This document shows, piece by piece, positions 274-38,801 of a stretch of 38,801 nucleotides of DNA. Position 1 is the first letter of the stretch. Each line of letters begins with the position of its first letter. The position numbers and the translations under genes are program-made. This DNA comes from a virus. The notes beneath the pieces were generated by a model. The model worked only from the letters and a program-made list of their open reading frames with translations, ran no database searches and was not told the origin of the DNA. The stretch is from positions 1-38,801 of the IMG/VR virus record IMGVR_UViG_3300021420_000013; one strand, 5' to 3'.

Positions 274-290
274 AGTGTGTCCTTAATGAT

Positions 291-503: not shown

Positions 504-563
504 ATCAAGTCCCCTTTGATAATCGCCAATCCCTCTGGCTTAAAGTCTTACTGATTTAGTAGG

Positions 564-618
564 ACATGACGATAATAGAAATCATTTGAAAATCCCTTCA
601 AAATTACTATCGTCATGT
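564..618. repeat. Nested inverted repeat (11-bp outer arms) in a 187-nt spacer
   Basis: ACATGACGATA at 564-574 is the exact reverse complement of 608-618. Inside the pair, TTTGAA at 585-590 is matched by TTCAAA at 597-602, so a two-part hairpin is possible. No T-run follows on the minus (gene) strand; a T6 run at 624-629 follows on the plus strand. The spacer 504-620 holds nothing else I can support. It may be a terminator, an RNA processing site or a protein binding site. Confidence 0.5.
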
Positions 619-620
619 GT

Positions 621-701
621 TCATTTTTTCAAACTACTTTTCTTGACTAGTTTGACAATTAAAGCTTTGTCCTCTTTCTCATCAGGATGTTTTACTTTTT
701 T
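621..701 (-). other. Slippery heptamer A AAA AAG and -1 frame extension of the His/Lys-rich protein
   Basis: On the minus strand the preceding gene ends GCA AAA AAA AAG TAA (706-692). This places A AAA AAG (701-695), the heptamer used in dnaX programmed frameshifting, in the correct frame directly before the stop. A -1 slip opens 24 sense codons, beginning VKHPDEKEDKALI and ending KKSSLKK, with stop TGA at 623-621. The extension has the same basic composition as the gene and fills the space up to the inverted repeat at 564-618. Programmed frameshift, polymerase slippage on A9, or a homopolymer error could each explain it. Confidence 0.5.
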
Positions 702-1036
702 TTTGCATGTTTCTCATGGTGCTTAATCATTTTTTCGTGATGTTTAAGCTCTTTCATGTGGTGCTGGTGCATTTGCCTATGGTGCTTATGCATTTCCTTG
801 TGGCCATCATGTTCGCCTTCATGCTTTTTATGTTCTTCTTTTTTATGGTGCTCTTTTTCGTGATGTTTTTTCACTGTTGTTGTCTCCTTGTGACTTTTCT
901 TAGGAATTTTAGCCCCAGATTTCCGCGCTTCACTTAAACTCGCAGCAATTGCTTGTTTTTTGGGATGGCCAGCGGCTTCCATTTCTGAAATATTTTCACC
1001 GATTACTTTACGGCTTTTGCCTTTTTTAAGTGGCAT
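692..1036 (-). CDS. His/Lys-rich protein with N-terminal PLKKGKS-type domain, 114 aa
   Basis: Residues 1-40 (MPLKKGKSRKVIGENISEME, then a GHPKKQAIAASLSEARKSG segment) match a small domain often found in phage hypothetical proteins, recalled from memory as a DUF6496-like domain. Residues 48-114 are almost entirely His, Lys, Glu and Met in HHEKEHHKK-type repeats, giving a highly charged helix that could bind metal or DNA. The gene overlaps the end of the preceding gene by 11 nt. It ends in an A9 run that forms a dnaX-type slippery site before TAA, with a 24-codon extension in the -1 frame, so a longer product near 138 aa is possible. The function is unknown; a packaged or DNA-binding protein is a guess from charge. 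Confidence 0.7.
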   Translation of the reverse strand: MPLKKGKSRKVIGENISEMEAAGHPKKQAIAASLSEARKSGAKIPKKSHKETTTVKKHHEKEHHKKEEHKKHEGEHDGHKEMHKHHRQMHQHHMKELKHHEKMIKHHEKHAKKK

Positions 1037-2283: not shown

Positions 2284-2549
2284 TGTTCTGAGAGCTCCTG
2301 TTGATTATTTTCATCCAGTCCGACACTAATATCTAAACATTTAGTAACAAGATAAACTAAATTTTTAAGATCATTAGGAAGTAAATGCAAAATATCTTGA
2401 AGACGCCCATGCGGCCAATTCTTAAATAATTCTTCTGTGCTTTTAATTTGTTTAAGCCAAATTAAAATATTGGCCAAATGACGTGCTTCTTCATATAATC
2501 TAGCCCTTCTTTTAAACTCCTCTAGTGGCTCTTGTTCCAGTTGTTCCAT
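2280..2549 (-). CDS. Small helical protein, paralogue A of the post-portal pair, 89 aa
   Basis: The product is a charged helical protein with Leu-rich core segments (ILIWLKQIKS, EELF, DILHLLP, NLVYLVTKCLDI). It is clearly related to the following 84-aa gene. The start is supported by AAAGGA five bases before ATG, although this places the first 38 nt inside the 3' end of the portal gene. The downstream gene starts in an ATGA overlap. Function is unknown. Confidence 0.7.
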   Translation of the reverse strand: MEQLEQEPLEEFKRRARLYEEARHLANILIWLKQIKSTEELFKNWPHGRLQDILHLLPNDLKNLVYLVTKCLDISVGLDENNQQELSEQ

Positions 2550-4632
2550 TTTTTTCCTTTAGTTTATGATGTGTCTCCAGTGCCTCTTTCACATGACGGT
2601 GTTTCATGTCATGGTGTTGCAATTGCAATTCAACTTTTTTCGCAAATTGCTCTGTGAGTGCCTTAATAAGCTGTATATTGCTAGTTTCTTTGCTAATTTG
2701 CAAGTCTGCCATCATCTTCTTTTCATCTTGTTGCAGTTTGGCCATATCAATTTGGAAAGACTGTTGGTCTTTTTGTTGTTGCTGTTGTAATTTGGCCGCA
2801 TCAAGTTGGGCTTTCATTGCGCCTGGGTTTTTCTGTGCTTCTTGCTGCGCCATTTGTTGTGCTTGGGCTTTTTCTTGCTGGTATTGTTGCGTCCATTCTT
2901 TCGTGAGTGCCTTCAATTCTTCGATGCCTTTGCCTTCCATATTGTCTAAAATAAAGTTCAAGCCTTTCTCTGCCATAAATTGCGCAAACAGGGGCGACAT
3001 GCCCATGATTTCTTTGACCATCATAATAGTACGTGATTTTTGTACTTGGAAGCTTGCGCCTGCTTTTAATGCGACATTCAGCACGTTTGAATCAAATTCT
3101 ATTGGGACGCCTTGTTCTTGGTTTATTCTGACATAGTGGCGTTTGCCATCTTCGTCAATGATTGGGATTGTGCGAGGGGTGACCATGTACTTAGGCATTA
3201 GGTCTACGTAGATTTGTGCCAGGCGTTGGAAGCCCTGTAAGCAGCCTACAACGTAAGGCATAGCGGTCGCATTGGATTGGCTTGCACCTTCAACAATCGC
3301 AATCCCTGAGAGCTGATTGTTGTTAATGCCTAGGCTTGCGTCATATGAGCCTAGGACATTTTGTATTAATGAATCAGAACTAGTAAATGCTTGGGCAATC
3401 TCGGGAGGTGCAGGCACGCGTTGTACTTCACGGATGGGATTGTTAATAGGCACCTCTGGGTTTTCTTCATAGACTGAATTAAAGACAAGTACATTTTGTT
3501 TTTGTACGTCTTTGTAGGCTTCTTTATATTCTTCTTCTTTCGGCAATGCTTCTTTTGCCACCATAAATTTATGTTGTACGGTGTTTTCAATTTCATTGGC
3601 AAGTGAGATGCCAGCATAGTTTTTGAGCCTTTGTGCGCCTTTCGCGTGATATACATAAGGGCGCGTTATTTGATGTATATTGCCGTTCATTGGCGTTTTA
3701 ATCATCAATGAGCTGCCGTCTACAAACACGACTGGCAAGAACGCGAAGTCTGTTTCTTCATATTCTAAGACTTGAGTATCGATTAATTTGTAACGGACAA
3801 TCCTGTCGATAAATGTTTTCCTGGGTTTGCCAACGATAGACGGGGGCACTGTGATGTCGTTCCAAGTGTCTACCATTTTGCGATAATCGGCCTGCGTCAT
3901 GACGCGGCCATCACGCACTTGTACGATAGTTTCAGGCTTGCGCTTTTTCTCATAATAATTGGCCATCATGATTATTTTGCTATTGTCGTTTTGATAGGAC
4001 CAGTTAAAACCTGCAAAATCACGACGGTAACTGAGAGAACGGATGTCGACATTAGGGTTTTCTTCTTCAAATTCTTCTTTTTCTTTGGGGAACAATTCAA
4101 AACAGAACTTGCCATCGCCTTTGTGTGACAGTCTTGCAAGACTGTCAAAGCCCACCAGTGTCGGTTCGCATTTTTCGAATTTAATCACTTGGTCAACTGA
4201 CATAGGATGTTCATAGTCTGTGTAGACCTTGACTGCTGAGAAGCCGCCAGACAAGAGGTCTTTGTAGACTTCGTAACGTAGGTGCTCATTGTCAGTGTCC
4301 ATAAACACGTGTTTTAAATGCTGTTGCACGACTTTAATTGTAATGGGGTCTGATTTGCTCTCATCGTAAGCGCTGACTTCAATGTCAGGCTCTTGTTTTG
4401 AGAACTCGCCTAAGAGCCTACTAATATATGCCTCTAAGACATTGAACTCGAGTTGGGGGCGTCCCATTGTCATTAACAATGTGACTTCATCATTCGTCAA
4501 TGATTGTTCAAAAACGAATTTGCGGAACTCATTGTAACGGTCGTAGTTAGGCTTAAAATAATCGTGCGCGTTCCTGACCGTTTTTTTTATGCGCGCAAGA
4601 TTATCTTGATAACGTTTCGCAACATCTTTCAT
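2512..4632 (-). CDS. Portal protein, P22 gp1-like, 706 aa
   Basis: This is the dodecameric portal through which DNA is packaged and to which tail factors bind. Length (706 aa) and layout match P22-like portals (about 725 aa): an N-terminal helical and stem region (SLTNDEVTLLMTMGRPQLEFN, residues about 42-62), a central clip and wing region, and a long Gln/Lys-rich coiled coil (residues about 580-660, with a QQQQQKDQQ run) that corresponds to the barrel helix. I use the ATG at 4632, which has AAGGGA eight bases upstream; an ATG nine codons earlier has none. It follows the 307-aa gene in the TerL-to-portal segment, and its end overlaps the next small gene by 38 nt. Confidence 0.93.
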   Translation of the reverse strand: MKDVAKRYQDNLARIKKTVRNAHDYFKPNYDRYNEFRKFVFEQSLTNDEVTLLMTMGRPQLEFNVLEAYISRLLGEFSKQEPDIEVSAYDESKSDPITIKVVQQHLKHVFMDTDNEHLRYEVYKDLLSGGFSAVKVYTDYEHPMSVDQVIKFEKCEPTLVGFDSLARLSHKGDGKFCFELFPKEKEEFEEENPNVDIRSLSYRRDFAGFNWSYQNDNSKIIMMANYYEKKRKPETIVQVRDGRVMTQADYRKMVDTWNDITVPPSIVGKPRKTFIDRIVRYKLIDTQVLEYEETDFAFLPVVFVDGSSLMIKTPMNGNIHQITRPYVYHAKGAQRLKNYAGISLANEIENTVQHKFMVAKEALPKEEEYKEAYKDVQKQNVLVFNSVYEENPEVPINNPIREVQRVPAPPEIAQAFTSSDSLIQNVLGSYDASLGINNNQLSGIAIVEGASQSNATAMPYVVGCLQGFQRLAQIYVDLMPKYMVTPRTIPIIDEDGKRHYVRINQEQGVPIEFDSNVLNVALKAGASFQVQKSRTIMMVKEIMGMSPLFAQFMAEKGLNFILDNMEGKGIEELKALTKEWTQQYQQEKAQAQQMAQQEAQKNPGAMKAQLDAAKLQQQQQKDQQSFQIDMAKLQQDEKKMMADLQISKETSNIQLIKALTEQFAKKVELQLQHHDMKHRHVKEALETHHKLKEKNGTTGTRATRGV

Positions 4633-4677
4633 TGTGTAGTCCCTTACAATACAAAGCAAGTCCTATGCTTTATTAGT

Positions 4678-6088: not shown

Positions 6089-7619
6089 AAGCCTTTTTCC
6101 TTAGTTGATTAATCCGGTCCTGAGTGCTATACAGCTCTTTTGCGACTTCATTATGATTGGGCGCATTGACTTGTGCCGACACTAATGTCTTGCGAATTAA
6201 GGCCATGTCAATAGCATCAGCGGCAGTGTCTGCAATGTCGTCCCAACGGTGCGTTTCATTGGCTGTAATTTTACTCATGTGTTGAACGCATAGCTTAACA
6301 TGACGCCCTAGTGCGGGGAAAGAGACACGACGCTCAGCTATGTAGGGCTGGATTGCGAGAAAACGGTTCGTTTTGCTTCCTTGTTCTCGGGTGCGAGGTA
6401 TGTCTATGAGTCTAATTGCTCGTATTTCAGACAATAAACTTAGCAATGTACCGCCAGTTGATTTCTTTTCAATTGCGACCATTTGAGGAGGGACTTTGTA
6501 CCTCATACATACTGACCAGAACTCTAAAAATGCGCCTTTGAGGTCCTTAGGTTCTACCCTACATTCTAATGTGTCTATCCAGTGCAGGCCGTATTGGCCT
6601 GTCTTCATGCCATAAGATTCAATTTCGTAGATCCCCCAGAAACTAAACGCCGTTGCGTCATTATAGCTCTTTGATGTCTCGGCAGTATCGCATGTGATAA
6701 AGCTATAGACCACTTGTGGCTCTTCATCAAGCATGACAAACCATTCAGGTTTAAATAGTGCACCGCCTGCGGGTATTGGCCGCTGCTGGTGCTGACTTGC
6801 AAATACGTAAGGGTCAGTTTCTTGAAGTTTTAAGAGCTTTTGTAGGGGATAGACTTCAGGATATAACGCATTGCCAGCAACATCGATGCTTTCTAAGATG
6901 ACTTTTTCCCAATTGTAGCCGTCTCTCTCATCAATTAAATACGCAGCTAGGTCGTCTTCATGGAGACGTTGTCCAATGAAGATTGTGGGTACATTTATGC
7001 CCCGTGGACGCTGTTGTATTGTTTCTCGATAGTTGTCTATGACTGACTTTCGAATTGTGTCAGAGTGGACTTCATCCGGTTTATGGGCATCATCTATGAT
7101 GACTGCACCTGAAAATCTATTGAGCATGGGCAAACCGGCGTCCATTCCTGTAATAGCTGAACCTGAGCCATACGCGCCGACAATGCCACCATGTGTTGTC
7201 TGGAACAAGTCTTTGGCCTTAGAATCGTGCCTAATCCTGACGTTAAACAAGTGCTGGTACTGCGGCAATTGCATAATGCGCTTAATCATTTCTGTATGTT
7301 TTGCCGCCAATACTTTGGAGTATGAGATGTAAAGAAACCGCGAATCAGGATAAGTGGCCATGACCCATGCTATCCACATTGACAATAGTGTTGATTTACC
7401 AGACCCTGGGTGGATGTTGATTAATAGCCGTTGTTGCGGGATTTCAAGCCTAAATGCCCGTGTCAATGCTTCAGATATCGTAATATGGTGCGATATGCGC
7501 CCAAGAGGCTGTGAGATGATAAACTCACGGCCGGTCAATATCGGATAAAAGAACTGTGTAAATTCTAATAAACTTGACCTCAGTTTAGACGCAATATCTT
7601 CAGTCCTCAGAAGATGCAT
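6078..7619 (-). CDS. terL: Terminase large subunit, 513 aa
   Basis: This is the ATPase-nuclease motor that packages DNA into the prohead. The Walker A motif is HPGSGKST (residues 70-77) and the Walker B is VIIDDAH (173-179). The RNase H-like nuclease domain shows its acidic residues at CDTAETS (D311), VAIEKKS (E384) and RWDDIADTAADA (D460/D461). The length is typical. It lies downstream of the TerS block but is separated from it by six small genes and a 545-bp noncoding region. It is followed without a gap by the alpha-CTD-like gene. Confidence 0.95.
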   Translation of the reverse strand: MHLLRTEDIASKLRSSLLEFTQFFYPILTGREFIISQPLGRISHHITISEALTRAFRLEIPQQRLLINIHPGSGKSTLLSMWIAWVMATYPDSRFLYISYSKVLAAKHTEMIKRIMQLPQYQHLFNVRIRHDSKAKDLFQTTHGGIVGAYGSGSAITGMDAGLPMLNRFSGAVIIDDAHKPDEVHSDTIRKSVIDNYRETIQQRPRGINVPTIFIGQRLHEDDLAAYLIDERDGYNWEKVILESIDVAGNALYPEVYPLQKLLKLQETDPYVFASQHQQRPIPAGGALFKPEWFVMLDEEPQVVYSFITCDTAETSKSYNDATAFSFWGIYEIESYGMKTGQYGLHWIDTLECRVEPKDLKGAFLEFWSVCMRYKVPPQMVAIEKKSTGGTLLSLLSEIRAIRLIDIPRTREQGSKTNRFLAIQPYIAERRVSFPALGRHVKLCVQHMSKITANETHRWDDIADTAADAIDMALIRKTLVSAQVNAPNHNEVAKELYSTQDRINQLRKKAYAR

Positions 7620-7737
7620 AAATCCTGTTCCCTGGATATAGTGATTGCTCGTCCTATTTTAATCCATCTCTCGCAATTTGTCACAATCTGTAAAGCATTC
7701 TATCAAAGGTACACTATCCGCCTTTGACATTTCCTGG

Positions 7738-7771
7738 TTTTCCGGATTTTCCGGATTTTCCCTTTTTTCCC
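7738..7771. repeat. Tandem TTTTCCGGA / TTTTCCC repeats
   Basis: TTTTCCGGA occurs at 7738-7746 and 7747-7755. It is followed by TTTTCCC at 7756-7762 and TTTTTTCCC at 7763-7771. The strand is entirely pyrimidine apart from the GGA units. It lies directly beside the GGGACAA iterons, so it may be an AT-rich or easily melted element of an origin. Confidence 0.65.
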
Positions 7772-7774
7772 TTT

Positions 7775-7809
7775 TCGGGACAATTTTGGGACAACTCAGT
7801 TTGGGACAA
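7775..7809. repeat. Three GGGACAA iterons
   Basis: GGGACAA occurs at 7777-7783, 7788-7794 and 7803-7809, the last two within TTGGGACAA. Start-to-start spacings are 11 and 15 bases, roughly one helical turn and a little more, so a protein could bind them from nearly the same face. Confidence 0.65.
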
Positions 7810-7840
7810 AATGTCACGGACTAGAATTTAATGATAGAAC

Positions 7841-7890
7841 ATAACCGATTTGGCTTTGTTATAACCGAACAAAATCCATTCGGTTTCGGT
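7841..7890. repeat. ATAACCGA direct repeats with inverted TTCGGT copies
   Basis: ATAACCGA is at 7841-7848 and again at 7861-7868, exactly 20 bases (two helical turns) apart. ACCGAA at 7864-7869 is mirrored by TTCGGT at 7879-7884 and again at 7885-7890. This arrangement resembles an operator or replication-initiator binding array. Confidence 0.6.
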
Positions 7891-8007
7891 CATAGTATGT
7901 CAGAACGTTTTCAGTATGAAAAAACAGGATGATATCAGGATGGCATTATTTTGAACTGTCAGGTTTTATCGAACAGTTGGGAATAGTACAGAAAGTACAA
8001 TAAAGCT

Positions 8008-8027
8008 GAGGCCGCCGCAGCGACCTC
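8008..8027. terminator. GC-rich hairpin, possible bidirectional terminator
   Basis: GAGGCCGC (8008-8015) pairs with GCGACCTC (8020-8027) around a CGCA loop, with one mismatch. On the plus strand it is followed by a T4 run about ten bases on, and on the minus strand by AGCTTTATT. It could end leftward transcription after the YkgJ-type gene, but the T-tracts are weak. Confidence 0.4.
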
Positions 8028-8066
8028 GAATGCCTTTTCTACGCTAAGGTAAATAGGTAAGGGAAA

Positions 8067-8131
8067 CAATAAGCACCACCACGAAGTCAACAAAGCAAGG
8101 ATTTCAGTTACAATAAAGATAGTGCTTATTG
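8067..8131. repeat. 10-bp inverted repeat flanking 45 nt
   Basis: CAATAAGCAC (8067-8076) is the exact reverse complement of GTGCTTATTG (8122-8131). It lies 34 nt beyond the stop of the YkgJ-type gene. It could be a protein binding pair, an RNA hairpin or part of the origin-like region. Confidence 0.55.
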
Positions 8132-8164
8132 CAAGTTAATATTAGTTGATAAACTTTCATATGT

Positions 8165-8542
8165 CTATAGCAAATCGATTTCAGCAAGTATTGCGCCTGC
8201 TTCCCTGTCTGTCAGCAGTCTTTCAGGCTTGCAACCGAAGTAACATGTCATTCCCTCGACTACACCGTAAAACCTACAAATCGCTGGACGCATGTTATAG
8301 ATTGTACACTTTTTGTCTTTCAAGGCTTTGCAATCGGGTATGTTGCCGGTGTCTATATTAGAAATGATTTTCTTAACGTCTTTGGGGTCTTTGAAGACAT
8401 CAGTATGTAGACGTGCTCTGGCACGTTTGCGTTCAATCTTTGAAGCTACAATAATCGTGCAGCCACCATGACAAAGTCCTTTACAATCAATGGTAGGGAT
8501 TTTCTTATAGATGGCTTCTAGTTTTTTGTATTTGTTTTTCAT
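8165..8542 (-). CDS. YkgJ-type cysteine-cluster protein, 125 aa
   Basis: The protein has the cysteine pattern of the YkgJ family, putative zinc- or iron-sulphur-cluster proteins. It shows CKGLCHGGC at residues 20-28, then CKALKDKKCTIY, then the family signature RPAICRFYG near residue 84-92, then MTCYFGC. Phages often carry this family beside packaging genes, but the reaction is not known. The gene is the last of a leftward run that starts with the Acb2-like gene. It lies 8 nt after the coiled-coil gene, and noncoding DNA follows. Confidence 0.8.
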   Translation of the reverse strand: MKNKYKKLEAIYKKIPTIDCKGLCHGGCTIIVASKIERKRARARLHTDVFKDPKDVKKIISNIDTGNIPDCKALKDKKCTIYNMRPAICRFYGVVEGMTCYFGCKPERLLTDREAGAILAEIDLL

Positions 8543-8550
8543 CGTCTGTT

Positions 8551-8832
8551 TTACTCATCCGGCGTTTCCTTTCTTAGCTCTGTCAGTTCAGTAAATATTT
8601 TCACAAAGCGCTCAGGGTCAACGGGTTTTGTTGCAAGTTCCTCTAATGCCGCACTTACTAAAGCTAAAAAATCATTTCGATGTTTTATCACTGCATTTTT
8701 CGAGATAATTAATTTTTTTAGATTATAAATTGTTTTGTGTAATTGGACATTTGCGACTTCTGAATTAAATAATTTAGCTCTAAGTTCAATGTTTTCTACT
8801 TCTAATTGTCCTATGGTTTTACTCATAAACAT
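8551..8832 (-). CDS. Coiled-coil hypothetical protein, 93 aa
   Basis: The product (MFMSKTIGQLEVENIELRAK...) has regular heptads of Leu, Ile and Val across residues 8-60, which predicts a parallel coiled coil. The start lies within the last codons of the Acb2-like gene (14-nt overlap). An alternative ATG two codons later, at 8826, would also fit. It sits between the Acb2-like and YkgJ-type genes. No family is recognised. Confidence 0.65.
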   Translation of the reverse strand: MFMSKTIGQLEVENIELRAKLFNSEVANVQLHKTIYNLKKLIISKNAVIKHRNDFLALVSAALEELATKPVDPERFVKIFTELTELRKETPDE

Positions 8833-9073
8833 TAGTCACTTCTTTATTTTCTTTTTGCGCAGGGCTAGCTAAACTCACGGCCTTTGTAGCCCACATACAT
8901 GCTTCCTGCAATCTCAGATATGCTAAATTGCGTTCACGGCCTTCGGGGACCATTAAACACAGCGCCTCAGCCAGAGTTATAAACTCATTTCTGATTGTAT
9001 AAACAATGTCAACGTTCTCTGATACTAGCATTGTGGGTAAAAAATCTTCTCTAATTGATTTTGGTCTTGTCAT
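8819..9073 (-). CDS. Acb2/Tad1-hairpin-like protein (putative anti-CBASS sponge), 84 aa
   Basis: Acb2 proteins are small all-helical phage proteins that sequester cyclic nucleotide signals of the CBASS defence. Here the pattern fits: an N-terminal segment, then VDIVYTIRNEFITLAEALC (residues about 21-39), a short polar turn, and the C-terminal helix YLRLQEACMWATKAVSLA (52-69). The last part matches the EARMWAVKA-type signature I remember for the family. AGGAAC precedes the ATG, and a promoter candidate (9104-9133) lies upstream. The call is from pattern memory, so a plain structural homologue without sponge activity is possible. Confidence 0.6.
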   Translation of the reverse strand: MTRPKSIREDFLPTMLVSENVDIVYTIRNEFITLAEALCLMVPEGRERNLAYLRLQEACMWATKAVSLASPAQKENKEVTNVYE

Positions 9074-9103
9074 TGTAAGTTCCTGCTATTTAAAATGTGG
9101 GGT

Positions 9104-9133
9104 ATGATAGCATAAGTGTAAATTATGTGTGAA
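9104..9133 (-). promoter_or_regulatory. Sigma70 promoter candidate for the Acb2-like operon
   Basis: Read on the minus strand, TTCACA (9133-9128) is followed after 18 bases by TATCAT (9109-9104). The -10 hexamer is the same as that of the leftward promoter of the 18-kb switch. It lies 31 nt before the start codon at 9073. Confidence 0.45.
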
Positions 9134-9168
9134 GATTAATATTAACAGCTCTCTTTGTTCATCGTAAT

Positions 9169-9363
9169 TCAAAAATTATTATGATTTTGGGTCTTTTTAT
9201 GCAGCTTATTTAAAAAATAAAACATAAGACGAATAGAATAACTTATTGCAATAAGTATTATACAAATAAGCGTTATTAATTTTATAGAAAAAATAGAAGA
9301 TGTAAAAAATGCATAAAACAATGTCGCAATGCCAGCTAACGCGATTGTTGAAGTAATTATCAT
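9169..9363 (-). CDS. Two-helix membrane protein, 64 aa
   Basis: Two hydrophobic helices span residues about 1-21 (MIITSTIALAGIATLFYAF) and 27-50 (SIKLITLICIILIAISYSI), followed by a short basic tail (NKLHKKTQNHNNF). I choose the ATG at 9363 because it overlaps the stop of the preceding gene as ATGA; an in-frame ATG five codons earlier is possible. Size, topology and charged tail are compatible with a holin, but the gene is far from the endolysin, so this is only a suggestion. Confidence 0.6.
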   Translation of the reverse strand: MIITSTIALAGIATLFYAFFTSSIFSIKLITLICIILIAISYSIRLMFYFLNKLHKKTQNHNNF

Positions 9364-9575
9364 TGCTCTATTTCCCACTCGTGATTTGGGTCTGGGACGA
9401 AGACCATGCTTATACTTTCATTATAATGCTCATGAGCATGATAATTATATCTTACAATCCAGCCACCAATTACTTTTACTCGAAATGTAGTAGCATCATT
9501 GCCGTCATAATATAGCGGCTCCCATTCAAATTCCATCTTGCCACAAAACTTTCTAATTACATCTTCTATACTCAT
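9360..9575 (-). CDS. Hypothetical aromatic-rich protein, 71 aa
   Basis: The product is rich in Trp, Tyr and His (FEWEPLYYDG, GGWIVRYNYHAHEHYNE, DPNHEWEIEQ) and looks like a small beta-sheet domain. It is translationally coupled on both sides: an ATGA overlap with terS upstream and another with the membrane-protein gene downstream. No family is recognised. Confidence 0.65.
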   Translation of the reverse strand: MSIEDVIRKFCGKMEFEWEPLYYDGNDATTFRVKVIGGWIVRYNYHAHEHYNESISMVFVPDPNHEWEIEQ

Positions 9576-10045
9576 GATGCTTTCCTGTTTTTTTCATCCA
9601 TTTCTGCATAACGTTTTTTGACATCGTCATCTAATTCGTTGTTAGGAAGTTCTTGTGATTTTGCTTCGCCGAATTTTTTCGGAAGTAGTTTTGACGCGTG
9701 CCATTTCATTGTATCAACTTTTAATTTTAATAATGGAACATCGATTTTTATGCTGCCATCTTCATTTTTTGTTTTGTGTGATTCATCGACCATTGTTTGC
9801 ATTGCATCGACCAAAACTTCCGCTTGACTTTCTTTAGCTTTATGATATTTGTCATAAAAATCTGGGTATTGTCGTAACCATAAAAATATATGTTGTCGTG
9901 CTGGCCAGTGTGAATTGTATTGACAAAGATGCGCAAGCCCTTTTTCAGAAGATGCTATTGCCGTGCAAATTTCGTCTGCTAGTTCGGGACTATAAATAGT
10001 CGGGCGTCCTTTTTTTTCATGGGGTGTAGTTTTACGCTTAGTCAT
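9572..10045 (-). CDS. terS: Terminase small subunit, Sf6 gp1-like, 157 aa
   Basis: The protein recognises the packaging site and hands DNA to TerL. Residues 10-50 (KKGRPTIYSPELADEICTAI, then a helix-turn-helix with WPARQHIFLWLRQYP) form the N-terminal DNA-binding domain of the Sf6-type family. The oligomerisation part follows (FYDKYHKAKESQAEVLVDAM), and the family motif LKVDTMKWHASKLLPKKFG lies at residues about 108-126. The tail is acidic and then basic. It is separated from terL by five small genes and 545 bp of noncoding DNA, unlike the usual adjacent pair. Confidence 0.88.
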   Translation of the reverse strand: MTKRKTTPHEKKGRPTIYSPELADEICTAIASSEKGLAHLCQYNSHWPARQHIFLWLRQYPDFYDKYHKAKESQAEVLVDAMQTMVDESHKTKNEDGSIKIDVPLLKLKVDTMKWHASKLLPKKFGEAKSQELPNNELDDDVKKRYAEMDEKNRKAS

Positions 10046-10060
10046 TCCGTGACCTCACTC

Positions 10061-10297
10061 CTAAACTTTATTGTAAGTTTCATTAAATAATTTAATCGCT
10101 TTTTCACGCGTCAATTTCGGATCTGTTTTCATCAAGTTTTTTATTGCTTTTTGATATGCGGCACTTTTGCGATCAATCTTATCTAATGATGGTGCTTTTT
10201 TTTCAGCAACTGCGTCATCGCAATCACAATAGATAAGCATCATGCCTGTCCCGAGATATTGTCCTGTGCCGCCGCATTTAATGCAAAGTTTGCTCAT
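10061..10297 (-). CDS. Small zinc-motif protein, 78 aa
   Basis: The start at 10297 (MSKLCIKCGGTGQYLGTG) is chosen over an upstream ATG at 10381 because AAGGG precedes it. Residues 5-28 hold a DnaJ-like half knuckle, CIKCGGTG, followed by YCDCDD, so a zinc ion is probably bound. The remainder is basic and helical (RKSAAYQKAIKNLMKTD). It is the first gene of the leftward TerS block and is divergent from the rightward small-gene cluster. The function is unknown. Confidence 0.65.
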   Translation of the reverse strand: MSKLCIKCGGTGQYLGTGMMLIYCDCDDAVAEKKAPSLDKIDRKSAAYQKAIKNLMKTDPKLTREKAIKLFNETYNKV

Positions 10298-10415
10298 AAA
10301 ACCCTTGATAGTGTAATCCTCAGCGTAAATTAAACCAAAAACTATACTAAAAGCCAAGGTATTTTCGATTTCGATACGCAAAAGGTAAGATTATTAATTA
10401 TTTTGCAAAGATAGC

Positions 10416-10444
10416 TTGACATATGCTGGATAAGCATGCATAAT
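10416..10444 (+). promoter_or_regulatory. Near-consensus sigma70 promoter of the rightward small-gene cluster
   Basis: TTGACA (10416-10421) is followed after exactly 17 bases by CATAAT (10439-10444). The same -35, spacing and -10 are found at 18042-18070 in front of the recombination genes, so the two rightward operons probably share timing. ATGC...GCAT (10424-10437) and TGCATAATGCA nearby are palindromic and could be operators. Confidence 0.75.
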
Positions 10445-10465
10445 GCAATTGTTTTCTGATAACAC

Positions 10466-10481
10466 AATAACTAAAGGGGAA
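10466..10481. repeat. First copy of the 16-nt initiation-region repeat
   Basis: AATAACTAAAGGGGAA at 10466-10481 recurs exactly at 10726-10741. Each copy carries the Shine-Dalgarno sequence of the gene that follows, so the two leaders are duplicated expression elements. Confidence 0.75.
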
Positions 10482-10485
10482 AAGC

Positions 10486-10698
10486 ATGAACACGACTAAA
10501 TATAAAGATATTTCAATCTTCAGAGGGATTAAGCAATGGTTCGATGAAAAAGGTAATGAATATCGTGCTGAGCGTGATACTTGGAATGCAATTTGGCGTA
10601 TTTATATTAGGTCAAAAAATAATGATTCATTTCTATATCATACAACAATACGCGCTCCCAAAAGAGCAAGTTGCGATCGATTAATGAATGAATTATAA
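10486..10698 (+). CDS. Hypothetical early protein 1, 70 aa
   Basis: The product (MNTTKYKDISIFRGIKQWFD...) is basic and rich in Trp and Tyr. It is the first gene after the strong rightward promoter and has AAAGGGG before its ATG. I recognise no family. The position in a cluster of six tiny genes under a near-consensus promoter is typical of early phage genes that act on host functions, which is inference from context. Confidence 0.65.
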   Translation: MNTTKYKDISIFRGIKQWFDEKGNEYRAERDTWNAIWRIYIRSKNNDSFLYHTTIRAPKRASCDRLMNEL

Positions 10699-10725
10699 CC
10701 TAAAACTGATTTATCACAATATTTG

Positions 10726-10741
10726 AATAACTAAAGGGGAA
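10726..10741. repeat. Second copy of the 16-nt initiation-region repeat
   Basis: AATAACTAAAGGGGAA here is identical to 10466-10481 and provides the ribosome binding site of the 101-aa gene that starts at 10746. Confidence 0.75.
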
Positions 10742-10745
10742 TTTA

Positions 10746-11051
10746 ATGACAGAACTAAGAAAATATTTGAAAGACGAAATGATCGCAATTATAGGCGAAA
10801 ATGAGCTAAAACTAGCTAATTGCGAAACGCCAGATTATCAAACATTTTTTAACGATAATGGATTTGAAAAACCTTGCATAGAGGAGGAATCATATGACGA
10901 AAGCTCGTCAGAATATTATCAAGAAGTTTGGTACGCGCGGCATGAGTTAGAAGATAACGAAAATTACTACGTGATAATAGTATGTTACGTAATTAAAGAT
11001 AACAACTTGGATTGGGATAATTTAGAACCTGATTATTACCATATTAGATAA
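10746..11051 (+). CDS. Hypothetical acidic early protein 2, 101 aa
   Basis: The protein is strongly acidic, with about a quarter Asp and Glu (EEESYDESSSEYYQE, then DNLEPDYYHIR at the C-terminus), and it has a hydrophobic strand YYVIIVCYVI near residues 79-88. The charge pattern resembles DNA-mimic or inhibitor proteins of phages, but no family is recognised and this is only a suggestion. The ribosome binding site AAAGGGG lies in the second copy of the 16-nt repeat. Confidence 0.65.
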   Translation: MTELRKYLKDEMIAIIGENELKLANCETPDYQTFFNDNGFEKPCIEEESYDESSSEYYQEVWYARHELEDNENYYVIIVCYVIKDNNLDWDNLEPDYYHIR

Positions 11052-14810: not shown

Positions 14811-15158
14811 TCATTGCATCGTGTCACTTGTAAATTTATAATAAAAATCAAATAATTTTAGCGTATCATTACGATACTCAGATGTTATCTCAGTGCGATG
14901 ATCATCATGTGTTCGATGTAACACACCCATTAGCCCTAGATAATTCAATCCTTGATAAAAAGATGGACATTGGTCTTCGTCCTTACTCATGACAATGTCG
15001 GCACATTCTAAGAGTTCCATATAGAGCCCTTCTTCAAATTCAGTAATGTCCCGCATAAAATTCCCCATACACGTAGGACAAATCATCCCTTTAAAATAAT
15101 CATTAAGCGCTTTACAGAGACGCTCAATTGATGCTGGCCTAATCTCTAACATACTCAT
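14811..15158 (-). CDS. Array paralogue G, divergent last member, 115 aa
   Basis: This is the last gene of the leftward seven-gene array and starts in an ATGA overlap with gene F. It has the family length and helical layout, but the central segment is reduced to YQGLNYLGLMGVL (residues 68-80) without the N-x3-N motif. It adds a Cys pair (MICPTCMGN, residues 26-33) that could bind metal. I include it as a divergent member because of size, position and coupling. Sequence similarity to A-F is weak and needs a profile comparison. Function is unknown. Confidence 0.6.
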   Translation of the reverse strand: MSMLEIRPASIERLCKALNDYFKGMICPTCMGNFMRDITEFEEGLYMELLECADIVMSKDEDQCPSFYQGLNYLGLMGVLHRTHDDHRTEITSEYRNDTLKLFDFYYKFTSDTMQ

Positions 15159-15511
15159 TTTTCCTTTCGAGGTGGGTATTTTTGAAAATCATAAAACGCC
15201 ATTTTTGAATTTTTGAATATTGCTGTATGTAACCGGTCAAATAATTCAAGTTGTTCGATTTTATCGTCCCTATTGTTTACTGAAATACTGCCTAAAATAT
15301 TAACAACAACGTTGCCCATTACTGATGCGACGAGTTCTAACATATTTAGTTCATACAATGGATTGTCGGTAATGTCCTTTTCCCATTTTTCCTTTAAGTC
15401 GACGATTTCCGTAATAATGTCTCGCATGGTGGTACACGACCTGTCCATGATTTTACCGACTATTTGATGCTTCTCGCTGTCTTGGAAGTGTTCATTGCCT
15501 ATATTGATCAT
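15155..15511 (-). CDS. Array paralogue F, 118 aa
   Basis: The central hydrophobic helix (residues 56-76, LNMLELVASVMGNVVVNILGSI) carries the N-x3-N motif of the family as N67 and N71. An N-terminal charged helix (KIMDRSCTTMRDIITEIVDLKE) and a C-terminal basic tail (KYPPRKEK) flank it. Starts and stops are coupled to E and G by ATGA overlaps. No known family is recognised; the likely fold is a three-helix bundle. Confidence 0.7.
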   Translation of the reverse strand: MINIGNEHFQDSEKHQIVGKIMDRSCTTMRDIITEIVDLKEKWEKDITDNPLYELNMLELVASVMGNVVVNILGSISVNNRDDKIEQLELFDRLHTAIFKNSKMAFYDFQKYPPRKEK

Positions 15512-15840
15512 GAGTTGTTGTCCTTCTGTTTTATTGCCAAAATTCTAGGGATTTCTGTTGTGAAATGTTTTAAAAAGTGGTCTACTAGTTCTTTTTTAAG
15601 TGTATCTGGAGCAGTATTTTTTAAGCCTTTTTGTAATGTTGTATTTAATACTGAGGCAGTGATAGACGAGAATAGCATAATCTCTATATCGAGCACTTCT
15701 TCGAGCCCCATATCTTCTGTATCATTCCCATATTTAAGGCCATAAACAGTTACGATGCTGTTCATAATTTTATTAGAAATATCAAAAATTATTTGGCCAA
15801 TTTGTTCTATGGCTTTATCGCGATTGTTTTGATTAGTCAT
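15508..15840 (-). CDS. Array paralogue E, 110 aa
   Basis: This member has the shared layout: N-terminal helix IGQIIFDISNKIMNSIVTVY (residues 14-33), central hydrophobic helix EIMLFSSITASVLNTTLQKGL (53-73), and C-terminal helix LVDHFLKHFTTEIPRILAI. The family N-x3-N motif is degenerate here. The start overlaps D by 8 nt and the end overlaps F as ATGA. Function is unknown. Confidence 0.7.
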   Translation of the reverse strand: MTNQNNRDKAIEQIGQIIFDISNKIMNSIVTVYGLKYGNDTEDMGLEEVLDIEIMLFSSITASVLNTTLQKGLKNTAPDTLKKELVDHFLKHFTTEIPRILAIKQKDNNS

Positions 15841-16198
15841 TAGGCTTCCCCTCCTTTTTAGAATTGACTAATATTACATGATGGAATATTTCTTCTGATT
15901 TTTTATAGATGCGATCGTTTACGTATTTAAACATTTTTGTGTGTAAGCCTAAATCATATTGTTCCATAGACAGGAGCCCTTTCGCGAGAATATTTGCTAT
16001 TAAATTGCTAAAAACAGTAATTAAAACATCCGATATATCGAGCTTATTAATAAGACTGTCATCATATATTTCGGTAATGTTTGTAAGATGACCGAACGTC
16101 TTCATAGTATGGTTGATTAAGTTAGTCATGATGAGATCAAAATTTTTAACGCCTTCGTCTTCTTTCAATTTTGCATCATTGGTGTGATAGTTTGCCAT
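15833..16198 (-). CDS. Array paralogue D, 121 aa
   Basis: The central helix (residues 54-76, DISDVLITVFSNLIANILAKG) has N65 and N69 in the N-x3-N motif and is closest to that of gene C. An N-terminal helix (FDLIMTNLINHTMKTFGHL) and a C-terminal amphipathic helix (KMFKYVNDRIYKKSEEIFHH) complete the pattern. The start overlaps the stop of C in a TAATG junction, so re-initiation is likely. Function is unknown. Confidence 0.7.
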   Translation of the reverse strand: MANYHTNDAKLKEDEGVKNFDLIMTNLINHTMKTFGHLTNITEIYDDSLINKLDISDVLITVFSNLIANILAKGLLSMEQYDLGLHTKMFKYVNDRIYKKSEEIFHHVILVNSKKEGKPND

Positions 16199-16551
16199 TA
16201 GATCCTGTCCTTTTCTTTTTTATTTTCCATATATAATAAGTCATAGACCTGGCGGGACTTTTCGTTAATGTTCCTATGGAAAAATTCTAGGATTTTTTGT
16301 TGTTTCTCAATTGTGAACTCTTGAGGTGCGTTTATTATCTGAAAACTGACATTTGCCAATACATTTGCAAATAAGGACGTAAGCAAATCAGTCATTTGTA
16401 TATCGGCAATTTCGGGGTCTTCGGTTATTAATTGAAATATTTTAAAAAGTAAATTCCTAAAAATATCGATAGTGTTTCGCAGTAAATCTGTTATTTCTTG
16501 TTTAACTTTATTATCGGTATTATCAAGTCTGATAGAGTGTTCTTTATTCAT
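16198..16551 (-). CDS. Array paralogue C, 117 aa
   Basis: This member shares with D the segment TSLFANVLANVSFQII (central helix, N63 and N67). Both share the N-terminal helix (ITDLLRNTIDIFRNLLFKIF, residues 20-39) and the C-terminal helix followed by lysines. It starts 12 nt after gene B with AAAGGA upstream of the ATG. The hydrophobic core could be buried in a bundle or associate with a membrane; it is too short of continuous hydrophobicity for a clear transmembrane helix. Confidence 0.7.
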   Translation of the reverse strand: MNKEHSIRLDNTDNKVKQEITDLLRNTIDIFRNLLFKIFQLITEDPEIADIQMTDLLTSLFANVLANVSFQIINAPQEFTIEKQQKILEFFHRNINEKSRQVYDLLYMENKKEKDRI

Positions 16552-16563
16552 CGTAAATTTCCT

Positions 16564-16929
16564 TTAATTATATTGCCCATTAAACCTGCTCTTTACATAG
16601 TTAGAAAAGATATCATTAACCGTTTTATGGAACAGTCCCATTGTATCTTCATAAAAAACGGTCAAATCAGAAGGTTGCACCAACTGGTCAAAATCCACCA
16701 TCTTAAAAAAAAGATTAATGTATAAATTTGTCGTGACGGCGATAAACACATTGAACGTCCGTAGTTGCGCATCGTCTGTATCATAATTGGGAAAGTCCTT
16801 TTCAGTATGACTGGCAGCTTCCACTTTTTGCATCGTGTAATATGCCTCCTTTACGAGGACAGCAAGTGCTTCCTTAATGTCTTGAAACGATTCATTATCA
16901 TCGTTGAGGTCTTTTATTATGGTTTGCAT
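16564..16929 (-). CDS. Array paralogue B, 121 aa
   Basis: The central helix (residues 59-80, FNVFIAVTTNLYINLFFKMVDF) with N68 and N72 is nearly matched in gene A, including the following acidic DFD. The N-terminal helix is YYTMQKVEAASH-like, as in A (IYAMKQIKHLSD). A and B are thus the most recent duplicates of the array. The start overlaps the stop of A in a TAATG junction. Function is unknown. Confidence 0.75.
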   Translation of the reverse strand: MQTIIKDLNDDNESFQDIKEALAVLVKEAYYTMQKVEAASHTEKDFPNYDTDDAQLRTFNVFIAVTTNLYINLFFKMVDFDQLVQPSDLTVFYEDTMGLFHKTVNDIFSNYVKSRFNGQYN

Positions 16930-17282
16930 TAGGCGTTTTCCTTGTTTTTTATAAGGTGTTGTAATAGTTTTTGAGTTGACTCAGTATGATGTTGAAGTAC
17001 TTCATCAAAACATTCTGACAGCCATTTAAGTGAAGTATGTTCATCAAAATCTATCATTGTCATAAAAAGATTAACGAACAAATTGGTCATTATAAATGAA
17101 AATACACCGACTGTAGGAAGCGATTTGCCCTCATCATTTTGCAAATTAGGATCGCTATCGGACAAGTGTTTAATTTGCTTCATCGCATAAATTGAATCTT
17201 CAACAAGCGAAGCAATCACTTTATTACAACGTTTAACTGACGGTGGAAGTTCTCCATTATTAACAAATATCTTGTGTGTCAT
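16929..17282 (-). CDS. Array paralogue A, first member, 117 aa
   Basis: The protein shows the full pattern: N-terminal helix VIASLVEDSIYAMKQIKHL (residues 22-40), a polar loop, central hydrophobic helix VFSFIMTNLFVNLFMTMIDFD (60-80) with N67 and N71, and a C-terminal helix ending in lysines. AAAGGAG lies five bases before the ATG, so A may be the main entry point for ribosomes on this array. It follows the membrane-protein gene by 31 nt in the leftward operon of the switch. Function is unknown; superinfection control or anti-defence would fit the place but nothing in the sequence proves it. Confidence 0.75.
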   Translation of the reverse strand: MTHKIFVNNGELPPSVKRCNKVIASLVEDSIYAMKQIKHLSDSDPNLQNDEGKSLPTVGVFSFIMTNLFVNLFMTMIDFDEHTSLKWLSECFDEVLQHHTESTQKLLQHLIKNKENA

Positions 17283-32770: not shown

Positions 32771-33553
32771 TTATGGACGGTAGCCGTGGCCCAAATTTAC
32801 ATCGCCCCAGTTATATCCTGGATTAGAGTCAGCATATAAAATTGATAACTTCTTGCCGCTCAGGTCCGGCGGAGATTCATACATCAGCTTCCTGACCATG
32901 GACATGTAAATCTTTTCAGATTCTGGGTTAAACAAGACCCCGTACTCGGAGCACATGTAACGGGCAAGTGAATAGCGTAAATACTCAATATACGCCGTGT
33001 CATAGCCTTGAATGCCATTGTTGATGAAGGTATAGGGCGTATAGTTCGGCACATTGTAAGTATTAACAAAACTCTCAGTAACGTTCTGCAAGTCTGTTTG
33101 CAAGGTGACGTCTACTAAGAATATTTTGACCTTCATCTTGATTGGGTAATTTTGGTCTGGGATAAAATACATCCCAAATGTGCCACCGCCAACGCCGCGG
33201 TCGTAGTTCCAGGAAAACGGCAACGTATAAATATTATCAACGCGTGATGAGCCGAAATAATTCGTGCGGCTGGTTGATACCATCGGGTATCGGACTACAT
33301 TAATGTTAAAGGTAGACGTCTCAATTGCCGCCACATATGGCAAGAAATAATATTCTTGCTGCGGTACTGCGTTGAACGTGATGTACTGCCAATAGGGGAT
33401 TAAATCAGTCTCGATTTGCTTAAAGTTAAGCAAGTCATTAAGCATTTGGAGGCCATCATTGATTTGGTCTCCTGTCGGGACTTGCAAGTTGCGTGCAACA
33501 ATGCCAGACAGGAACCAGGAGCGAGTCACTAATTGTTGTGCTGTATAAGCCAT
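32771..33553 (-). CDS. Tail accessory/adaptor protein, P22 gp4-like, 260 aa
   Basis: The N-terminal segment MAYTAQQLVTRSWFLSGIVA and GLQMLNDLLNFKQIETDLIP, followed by YWQYITFNAVPQQEYYFLP, are the marks of the P22 gp4/T7 gp11-type adaptor that docks on the portal ring. The length fits the family (gp4 is 166 aa; related adaptors are longer). Beta-rich parts and the helix YIEYLRYSLARYMCSEYG support this. It lies in the P22 position between coat and gp10. Confidence 0.78.
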   Translation of the reverse strand: MAYTAQQLVTRSWFLSGIVARNLQVPTGDQINDGLQMLNDLLNFKQIETDLIPYWQYITFNAVPQQEYYFLPYVAAIETSTFNINVVRYPMVSTSRTNYFGSSRVDNIYTLPFSWNYDRGVGGGTFGMYFIPDQNYPIKMKVKIFLVDVTLQTDLQNVTESFVNTYNVPNYTPYTFINNGIQGYDTAYIEYLRYSLARYMCSEYGVLFNPESEKIYMSMVRKLMYESPPDLSGKKLSILYADSNPGYNWGDVNLGHGYRP

Positions 33554-34487: not shown

Positions 34488-36053
34488 TTAGCCCTGTGAT
34501 AATGGGACGATATAACGCATGGAGTACTCAGGTACTATTACAGAGCCGTGGGTCTCGTCGTAAATCATGCCAGTTTGGTTTTGGCCGAATTGAGAACCGT
34601 AGGTCAACCGTAATGATGCGCCAGTTGTCTCATCATATTCGTTGGCTGTTGGGAACGGGCTTTGCTCTGGCAATTGAGGCATTGCTAAGTAAAACGCGTC
34701 GCCGCCTAAAATCCCGCCGCAACGGTGTGATGGCAACCCAAGCACTTGCATTCCTGCAATAATCGGGGTGTTCACGTTTTGGTTTTGTCCACCAGCCCAG
34801 TTCAATGCAGGAGTAATGTTGATTGTGACATTGCCTGAGCCATTGGCTGCTGCATTGGCAGTTGCTCTAAATTGCACCGGATTGGCACTTGGAAAATGAC
34901 CAATAAATGTGAGGTAGCGCAAATTGGTCAATCCTGATACACCATCTTGGAACTGGAACAAGTCACCAGAGAACACCGCATTGGCATCGCTCGCCGTCGC
35001 ACCACTGAATGTTATTTGAGTAACGTTATTGCCAGTAGGGTCATTAGTGCTTACAACCGTCAAAGTTTGTTGGTTTACGCCAGTGTCACCAGACACGTGT
35101 AGTGGCATTAAGTTTGATTGGTAGTAATCAACTAATGGTGTACCAAAGTCCCCTATTTCCCATGACATTGCGATCTCATCATTTCGATGTGGAACAAATT
35201 GGTTCAATCCGTTGCCTACGACACTTGGCACGACTGTGTCAGGCAAGTAGATTTTCATACCTTCTGCAACGCTGCCATAGTTCTTGAAGAACATTACGGA
35301 TTGAGCTAACTGTTGATCATTTTTGTTCAATTAAGGTCGTTACTCTTAATCCGCCTTTCGGCCGCTACGTATTGCCACGTAGATCAGACTATATCTTCAC
35401 CCTTTCGGGGCTCGGCGCTTCCGCTCACTTGAGCGTACTCCCTTGCGGGATAGTCGTTGCACCTTCCTCTTTCGAGGCTTGGCTCAGGATTGTCTACTTG
35501 AGAGTTTCCCTGAGTTCACCGAGTTATTATCAGCATATTTCTATGCAGCGAGCCTGTCATCAGTTAAGCTCGATAATGCCACGCTGCCATTACCAAAAAA
35601 TCGGTATGGACCTGAGAAAGTATTGGTCGTACCGTCTAATTGGCTCACAACACCTGATGCCCAGTTTAAAGCTATATTGCCTTCTACAAGCGCAGCTAGT
35701 TCAGCAATTGCACTCTTGCCAAAAACTTGCATGTAGTCCTCTTCACCTTTTTCTAGGTTAAAAATTCTCTGTTGTGACGTAACACTGAACGATGTGTTGT
35801 TTGCTTGATCACATGCTAAGCTCTGTACGCGTTGTACTGCTGGTTGAAATGCAGCGACTAGTCCTGCTGTAGTTGTAAACCGTGGAGGTAAGTCGAATGT
35901 AACTACTGACCCAAGATTAGCTTGAATCTTATCAAAGTCTTTAAATTTTGTATTAGCTGTCGCAATGTGACAACATAAGTTCTGTAATAGTGCAAGTCCA
36001 GACCGTTGATAGGTTTGTACTTGTTGTAAAATATTTGTGGGGAAAACTGCCAT
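34488..36053 (-). CDS. Major capsid protein, P22 coat-like, split by a group I intron (438 aa after splicing)
   Basis: The coat protein is encoded in two exons, 36053-35567 and 35317-34488. Translation of the unspliced message stops at TAG 35543-35541. After removal of 35566-35318 the frame continues ...VALSS-Y-QQLAQSVMFF, where Tyr163 is built from T at the end of exon 1 and AT of exon 2. The joined product has 438 residues, close to P22 gp5 (430). The second exon carries LPDTVVPSVVGNGLNQFVPH and RNDEIAMSWEIGDF, conserved in this coat family as I remember it. TAGGAGC precedes the ATG. The gene follows the scaffold by 44 nt. A broken pseudogene is unlikely because both exons are intact. Confidence 0.9.
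35318..35566 (-). ncRNA. Group I intron (249 nt, IA-like, no endonuclease) in the capsid gene
   Basis: All the core helices can be drawn on the minus strand. P1 pairs exon CGAGCU (35572-35567) with GGCUCG (35554-35549), with the conserved U.G at the splice site. P2 is GCAUA-GAAA-UAUGC (35546-35533). P3 is CUCGGUG/CGCCGAG (35523-35517, 35417-35411). P4 is CUCAGG/CCUGAG (35514-35509, 35488-35483). P6a, P7 (GACUA/UAGUC), P8 and P9 follow, with two extra hairpins P7.1 and P7.2 typical of subgroup IA. The text AATCCTGAGCCAAGCC and GGTGCAACGACTA resembles the Anabaena tRNA-Leu intron core as I recall it. The intron ends in G at 35318. No open frame lies inside. Confidence 0.93.
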
Positions 36054-36097: not shown

Positions 36098-36799
36098 TTA
36101 ACCTTTGTACTTACGTTTTAAGTCAGCCATCGACAACGTAGACCCTTCGCCCGTCCCTGTGTTAGAAGGCCGTGTTTGTGACAGTGGTGCATTGGCATGT
36201 TTGGTCTGAGTAGTTTGTTCGTTGGCTTTGATTGAGTCAGATAGACGTTTGATTTCGTAAATTGCATCTCGCGTATTGTGTGTACTCAGAGACTCGAGCC
36301 TGTAAAGCTTGTCCCTGTTGTGTGCTAGATGGTAAAGTACGTCTGCGCTATTATCGACTTGTTCAGCGAGTAGCTGTACTACGTTCGGATAATATTGCAT
36401 CTCAACGTTACCTGTCACAGACTCAAAGTCATCGTAGCGGTCTTTACCTGCCACAATCTTGTCTTTGAAAATGCCGACAATCCGGTTAGCTGCTTCAACG
36501 TTTGCACGTTCCTGTGCTTCTTGTTGCAACTGGCCAAATGTCTTTTTAATTTCATCACTCGCGACCCGTTTAATATCATCTTCTGATATTCGACTGACTT
36601 GCGATTGGTGCGCATTTTCATGTTGGTGTGCTGCCGCTTCGCGCTTATATGCCTCAACGGCACGTTCTGCTGCTTCGCGTTTTGCATGACCAACAATGTC
36701 ATTCACTTGTGATTGTGGCACCATTTTCTCAATTACTTGAGCTGGCGCTTCTTGGGTATTTCCTATACCAGACGTGTTGTCCATAACACTATTGTCCAT
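36098..36799 (-). CDS. Scaffolding protein, P22 gp8-like, 233 aa
   Basis: The protein directs coat assembly and leaves the prohead. It is charged and helical throughout, with long Glu/Arg/Ala helices (HAKREAAERAVEAYKREAAA) and a C-terminal segment MADLKRKYKG whose basic helix resembles the coat-binding end of gp8. I start at ATG 36799 (MDNSVMDN), which has GAAGGA five bases upstream; an ATG 17 codons earlier has none. It lies between the structured leader and the coat gene, as in P22. Confidence 0.78.
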   Translation of the reverse strand: MDNSVMDNTSGIGNTQEAPAQVIEKMVPQSQVNDIVGHAKREAAERAVEAYKREAAAHQHENAHQSQVSRISEDDIKRVASDEIKKTFGQLQQEAQERANVEAANRIVGIFKDKIVAGKDRYDDFESVTGNVEMQYYPNVVQLLAEQVDNSADVLYHLAHNRDKLYRLESLSTHNTRDAIYEIKRLSDSIKANEQTTQTKHANAPLSQTRPSNTGTGEGSTLSMADLKRKYKG

Positions 36800-36914
36800 A
36801 ACATTCCTTCTAGCTATTGCCCCGCCACGGTAGGTCCTTGTTTGTCGCACAAGTCTCGGATTATTACGCCATCACGCTAAATTTGCCCCACATACGCATG
36901 GGTCTCGGTAGAGA

Positions 36915-36995: not shown

Positions 36996-37139
36996 TAGCG
37001 CCAGAATGGTTGTATGAAACAATATGAGAAAGGCTTACACAATATTGGGTTATAGTGCATTTATAAATAGATGGAGATGTCTTATGATGTTGTCTCAGAT
37101 TTTTTTGCCTTTAAAAACAATCATAACTTAAGGAAGATT

Positions 37140-37334
37140 ATGCTTAACATAAATGGAAAAAAATATTTATCAGAAAAAGAAATGTCAGTGAAATTTGGGC
37201 TTTCAGTACATTGGTTTCGTAAAACGAGATATAGCGGCAGGAGCCCTTCTTATTATAAATTTAATAAGAAAATTTATTATTCGGAAAATAGTGCCGAAGA
37301 ATGGTTCAAGCAACACTTGATCTTATGTGAGTAA
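37140..37334 (+). CDS. Lone winged-helix protein, AlpA/excisionase-like, 64 aa
   Basis: The start at 37140 (MLNINGKKYLSEKEMSVKFG) has AAGGAAG directly upstream; an ATG at 37071 lacks one. The segment KKYLSEKEMSVKFGLSVHWF, then RKTRYSG and Y..SENSAEEWFKQH, is the MerR/AlpA/excisionase winged helix. It is the only plus-strand gene within the late region. No integrase is present, so a regulator is more likely than an excisionase. The stop is followed at once by the terminator 37335-37378. Confidence 0.75.
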   Translation: MLNINGKKYLSEKEMSVKFGLSVHWFRKTRYSGRSPSYYKFNKKIYYSENSAEEWFKQHLILCE

Positions 37335-38561: not shown

Positions 38562-38762
38562 CTATGCTTTTCGTGGCGTCAAAGAATCGCCTTTGCGTGA
38601 CCAGTTTGACTCTCTGCCTTTTTTCATGCCCATTTTGCCATAATGGCCTTCGCTGTCTTTTTTGTCATGGCCACGTTGTTTGACGCGTTCAATGCCGCCT
38701 TGATGGTCCTCTTTGACCATCCGGTTGTCTATCATCCCTTCTTTTTCGTGGTGTTTTTTCAT
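38562..38762 (-). CDS. Basic His/Lys/Gly-rich small protein, 66 aa (spans the contig joint)
   Basis: The product is MKKHHEKEGMIDNRMVKEDH..., followed by VKQRGHDKKDSEGHYGKMGM and a C-terminus LTPRKA. It is strongly basic, like the proteins at 112-273 and 692-1036. AAGGAC lies before the ATG. Because of the 127-bp overlap its first 88 bases also appear at 88-1. I do not recognise the family. A packaged DNA-binding protein is possible from charge. Confidence 0.65.
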   Translation of the reverse strand: MKKHHEKEGMIDNRMVKEDHQGGIERVKQRGHDKKDSEGHYGKMGMKKGRESNWSRKGDSLTPRKA

Positions 38763-38801
38763 TGTAATGTCCTTATTGTTAATTGTTATAATAGGCGCTT
38801 T
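38675..38801. repeat. Right copy of the 127-bp contig end repeat
   Basis: These bases are identical to 1-127. They complete the circle and should be counted once. Confidence 0.95.

Follow-up and report, generated by a model that had tools for sequence, protein, structure and literature searches.

An insertion in the coat protein gene of the virus contig IMGVR_UViG_3300021420_000013 (analysed as one stretch of 38,801 nt, hereafter the window) was identified, with strong support, as a group I intron that lacks an endonuclease gene and interrupts a coat gene of the P22 type (Table 1). This endonuclease-free intron with P7.1 and P7.2 helices is almost certainly functional and self-excising from the coat pre-mRNA, and is best interpreted as a near-neutral selfish element of a lineage that resides in coat genes. 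Sequence, structure, covariation, empty sites and relatives were observed directly, and from these we infer splicing, a ribosome stop and near-neutrality. The window consists of one metagenomic contig, but the same intron was also present in other contigs.

Table 1. Coordinates of the coat gene, its intron and associated head genes in the window (/, splice site).
Feature	Coordinates	Strand	Description	Evidence
Coat gene exon 1	35567..36053	-	162 codons and first nt of Tyr codon; ATG start at 36053; 3' end ...GCA TTA TCG AGC T	ORF list; uninterrupted homologues
Group I intron, 249 nt, without endonuclease gene	35318..35566	-	5' end TAACTGATGAC; 3' end ...AAAAATG; terminal omega-G at 35318	RF00028; covariation; empty sites
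P1	35549..35572	-	exon CGAGCU/U with internal guide AGGCUCG; U.G pair at 5' splice site	pairing check
In-frame UAG inside P2	35541..35543	-	closes unspliced frame at 170 aa (...RLAA-stop), ahead of ribozyme core
Coat gene exon 2	34488..35317	-	last two nt of Tyr codon, QQLAQSV...LSQG, stop	ORF list; phrog_283 major head protein
Head scaffolding protein gene	36098..36850	-	directly upstream of coat gene	phrog_8865, E 3.5e-10
P22-like portal protein gene	2512..4659	-		PF16510, E 4.9e-91
Sf6-like terminase small subunit gene	9572..10045	-		PF20901, E 4.7e-25

Excision of 249 nt, with cuts after U 35567 of AGC-U and after G 35318, joined the exons as AGC-U/AU-CAA (Ser-Tyr-Gln) and yielded one frame of 438 codons that matched homologues from end to end. 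The minus-strand coordinates 35566-35318 and the 249-nt length given by the first-pass annotation were borne out by the sequence, the ORF list and the homologue comparison, as were its premature TAG, phase 1 insertion, ALSS-Y-QQLAQSV junction and 438-aa joined product. When each exon was used to scan IMG/VR, well over 100 related coat genes were retrieved, and these were counted by distinct exon-2 DNA (n = 102, window not included). In 101 of these close relatives, the frame was uninterrupted and the empty site consisted of exactly 6 nt, as against 6 + 249 nt in the window; its two codons encoded Ser (Thr once) followed by Tyr (Phe in a few cases). The single exception was intron-bearing; with the window counted, the intron is present in two among 103 distinct alleles of these close coat genes. 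Placement of the splice sites rests on the P1 U.G pair, the terminal G and the 101 distinct uninterrupted relatives: cuts at 35566/35318 gave an uninterrupted product and satisfied both the U.G and the terminal-G rules, and the empty sites indicated that removal of the intron restores the host gene.

Identification of the interrupted gene as encoding a major head protein is safe, and the P22 type of this protein is likely. The major head protein family phrog_283 was matched by 11 of 20 coat homologues (best E 1.3e-13), and the top PDB matches of the coat protein, all weak (E 0.012-0.07), were to 'Gene 5 protein'. Pfam yielded no match to the coat protein, and no relative of it was found among known phages. 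An AlphaFold model of an intronless homologue (L002; 20 aligned rows) was discarded in view of its pLDDT of 37.6. The head module was assigned to the P22 type because a scaffolding gene directly precedes the coat gene and genes for a P22-like portal and an Sf6-like terminase small subunit were present. Host assignment gave two MAG matches in unrelated phyla, which may be mis-binned.

A cmscan search against Rfam, a check suggested together with the first-pass annotation, returned a significant minus-strand match to the group I model RF00028 at 35576-35365 (E 3.7e-19; 80.8 bits, with the gathering score at 50; model positions 1-253, its full length), which was the sole Rfam match in the whole window. 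All 15 helices examined (P1, P2, P3, P4, P5, P6, P6a, P7, P7.1, P7.2, P8, P9, P9.1, P9.2, and P10) were fully paired in the window sequence. Every helix named earlier for the group I core claimed from the sequence was among them, and P2, P5, P6, P9.1, P9.2 and a possible P10 were added. P7.1 and P7.2, located between P7 and P3 (UCCC/GGGA and CGCUC/GAGCG) and supported by covariation, are a feature of subgroup IA and place the intron in that subgroup at a level that does not tell IA1, IA2, and IA3 apart.

Two contigs, L070 and L072, which were counted as one virus because they were identical over 9175 nt, carried a 245-nt intron at the very site occupied in the window. Identity between window and L070 was 86.5% for the intron and 74% for the exons. 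In both alleles the unspliced frame ended in ...RLAA-UAG within P2, although the two differ by a 3-nt indel. By halting ribosomes, early in-frame stops are considered to aid intron folding (PMC3984707); two alleles are too small a number to demonstrate selection for the early stop here. In the coat tree, window and L070 were each placed beside an intronless neighbour and the AU test did not reject a single clade (p = 0.44). Tree and test together fit an intron history with or without inheritance from one coat ancestor.

A pattern scan with the exact 44-nt intron core gave no match, and looser core patterns led to L150 and then to L245. L245, a 4-kb contig, encodes a divergent P22-like coat protein (47% amino acid identity to window exon 2) whose gene is interrupted at 766-1012 (+) by an intron without an endonuclease gene (RF00028, 75.1 bits). 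This intron lies in phase 0 between NLG and DTVSFDLPP, approximately 345 nt upstream of the window site, in a motif that was unbroken in about fifty other coats of the L245 clade. A scan with the L245 coat yielded L281, a 39-kb contig with a 252-nt intron at 3294-3545 (+) (RF00028, 72.4 bits), which is inserted in phase 2 (phase 1 in the window) at TAC-CU/A-CAA, 4 nt downstream of the window site. The four coat introns (window, L070, L281, and L245) therefore occupy three sites. Relatives found by intron sequence alone were located in capsid genes (L245 and phage C72C1) and in a DNA polymerase gene (L150).

The U.G pair at the 5' splice site was shared by the L070, L281, and L245 introns, and P3, P4, P6, and P7 were paired in all four coat introns. 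Outside P1 and P10, 61 modelled pairs were common to all four, with 99.2% of pair cells standard. Double changes occurred at 22 of these pairs, as compared with 1-2 in slid controls (of which 31-43% was paired), and none of 500 shuffles scored as high; among five introns from different genes, the number of double-change pairs was 27. P10 was the weakest helix. Its window form (UGAU/AUCA) is separated by 3 nt from the P1 strand, and in L070 it changed jointly with the exon to an adjacent UGGU/ACCA; UGUC/GAUA was found in L245, and in L281 P10 was no more than partial.

An alignment of the coat introns with introns from polymerase, terminase, reductase, and SU10-type capsid genes (14 rows, approximately 190 columns) gave a tree that, at this size, is suggestive rather than decisive. 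The four coat introns formed one clade (ultrafast bootstrap 94, SH-aLRT 98), in which those of L281 and L245 were sisters (97/96) and yet occupy different sites. The nearest non-coat relative was the L150 intron (IMGVR 3300037805_000110; 88% identity over 154 nt), which differs from the window intron in its host gene, encoding a family B DNA polymerase, and in P9.1 and the 5' region. This polymerase gene [7581-10761 (-)] has its group I intron at NSLYGA and, beyond the intron, an intein-like sequence (VYDIEVKNNHNFFANDILVHNS) after GDTDSV. Among annotated phages, the best megablast match of the intron was to phage C72C1 (OQ984150.1, L313; RF00028, 81.8 bits), in which, by our reading, the intron spans about 1133-1383 and splits an SU10-type major head protein gene. 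Its insertion site (GCG U/AC CAG) and that of the window (U/AU CAA) have the phase and a Tyr codon followed by Gln in common, but the capsid family is different (PF17236, SU10_MCP) and the C72C1 intron fell outside the P22-type coat intron clade. The C72C1 record annotates the head protein as two separate CDS, accompanied by small antisense ORFs, and no intron, illustrating how automatic annotation splits intron-bearing coat genes in two.

In the preferred interpretation, two guanosine-initiated transesterifications would excise the intron from the coat pre-mRNA and thereby restore a 438-aa P22-type coat protein. The 5' cut would follow the U of AGC-U, which is the partner of G in P1, and the 3' cut would follow omega-G 35318. 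The in-frame UAG in P2 probably halts ribosomes ahead of the ribozyme core, which would allow the core to fold. Splicing in the virus is predicted here from sequence. If the insertion did not splice, the coat would be made as two chains, a 170-aa N-terminal part and a C-terminal part initiated at TTG 35330. A TTG-started exon 2 ORF is indeed present and its counterpart is open in L070, but the intact, covarying ribozyme core, the lack of a convincing ribosome-binding site ahead of the TTG upon inspection by eye, and the single chain running through the conserved motif in all intronless homologues make such a two-chain coat extremely unlikely. Misjoining of an intron-bearing read during assembly, conceivable because the window is one metagenome contig, is a still more remote prospect in view of the orthologous intron at the same site in L070 and L072, the related introns in L281 and L245, and the fit of the internal guide to the local exon.

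The first-pass annotation had further proposed that splicing may link capsid production to host physiology, a proposal that found no support. The coat is essential and splicing requires guanosine and correct folding, and nothing further favoured a domesticated regulator. Absence of the intron in about 98% of close relatives, its sporadic distribution and the lack of any conserved domain besides the splicing helices render a regulatory role very unlikely. The intron is better interpreted as a near-neutral selfish element from a small lineage that inhabits the coat genes of this phage group.

Absence of a homing endonuclease gene, as claimed from the sequence, was corroborated: the 249-nt intron contains no notable coding frame and lacks the intron-encoded homing endonuclease by which mobile group I introns are recognised. 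HNH, HNH_3, and GIY-YIG gave no match in the window record or C72C1, nor in the other virus records with related introns, three of which are fragments. No second group I intron (RF00028) was detected in the window, the other intron-bearing records or C72C1, and none that was credible in the other coat-bearing records searched; these were picked for their coat gene and many are fragments, and they give no basis for calling the lineage restricted to the coat gene. Weak RF00028 matches in G070 and G071 (22 bits) failed in cmscan and were treated as chance.

The lineage could have spread through homing with the help of an unseen nuclease, by homologous recombination between coat genes, or by reverse splicing into new sites; the last of these routes is slightly favoured because sister introns sit at different sites. 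Location of the two closest introns at different sites is circumstantial evidence that an intron may have moved within one phage gene. Movement of the endonuclease-free coat-gene lineage among three sites (the Tyr codon of SSYQQ, a position 4 nt downstream, and NLG/DTVSFDLPP approximately 345 nt upstream) is a tentative and rather unlikely scenario, for which the simplest mechanism would be reverse splicing into coat mRNA and recombination of the cDNA. If true, it would give, in a protein gene, the equivalent of the rDNA cases, which supply the best circumstantial evidence for reverse splicing as a route; a 2014 review found circumstantial rDNA evidence only (PMC3984707). In T4-like phages and cyanophages, group I introns without an ORF are described as being moved by endonucleases acting in trans (PMC3984707, PMC10448857), a precedent for collaborative homing, in which a free-standing homing endonuclease, rather than plain recombination or reverse splicing, would have spread the lineage. 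This history, compatible with a self-excising, near-neutral intron, appears improbable given the negative HNH, HNH_3, and GIY-YIG searches described above. With sister introns at three positions in one gene and no nuclease detected, these coat genes form a small natural system for studying how endonuclease-free introns reach new sites.

That a group I intron occurs in a capsid gene is already known; the window intron is a real and well-supported further example, surrounded by an interesting multi-site lineage. The first-pass annotation considered the intron unusual in a P22-type coat gene, which held locally (2 of 103 alleles) but not generally, as introns have been published in the major capsid genes of LittleE, where splicing occurs in vivo, and Tuc2009 (PMC3706429) and of crAss-like phages (PMC7886860). 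Mycobacteriophage LittleE resembles the window in having a probable group I intron in its major capsid gene that shows a U at its 5' splice site and terminates in G; in contrast, its intron measures 819 bp, contains a LAGLIDADG-like reading frame, interrupts an HK97-type capsid gene of an actinobacterial phage and was demonstrated to splice by RT-PCR and N-terminal sequencing, whereas splicing in the window is predicted (PMC3706429). The BAKA/Optimus intron is likewise small (265 bp), without an endonuclease gene and located in a virion structural gene, but this is a tail gene and its splicing was demonstrated by experiment (PMC3706429). In crAss-like phages (Delta, Zeta), likewise uncultured, group I introns also interrupt the major capsid gene, but there are often several per gene, they were detected via their endonuclease domains and the phages belong to another order (PMC7886860). 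Introns of Jug phages are similarly short (mean about 206 nt) and abundant, with 37 of 76 predicted introns backed by metatranscriptome reads, but these are gut jumbo phages with introns in, e.g., terL, nrdD, and polymerase genes (PMC12363816). In a literature search of partial coverage, no paper was found that reports a P22-like coat protein gene together with an intron. The window ribozyme is compact, lies in a gene that is essential and highly expressed, and belongs to a coat gene with natural alleles that carry or lack the intron.

Several further features of the window were observed. Packaging genes lie at the left and coat genes at the right, all on the minus strand, the layout to be expected if a circularly permuted map had been opened close to the ends of the window (1-692 and 38762-38801). 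A small opposite-strand ORF [37071-37334 (+)] located upstream of the scaffold gene resembles a small DNA-binding protein, without a Pfam match, and a similar ORF occupies the same place in L148 (10999-11259). A row of ORFs of 115-121 aa [14811-17282 (-)] resembled, by eye, diverged tandem paralogues. The 260-aa product of 32771-33553 (-) has a 442-aa homologue in L148 [6162-7490 (-)], which contains a long internal insertion.
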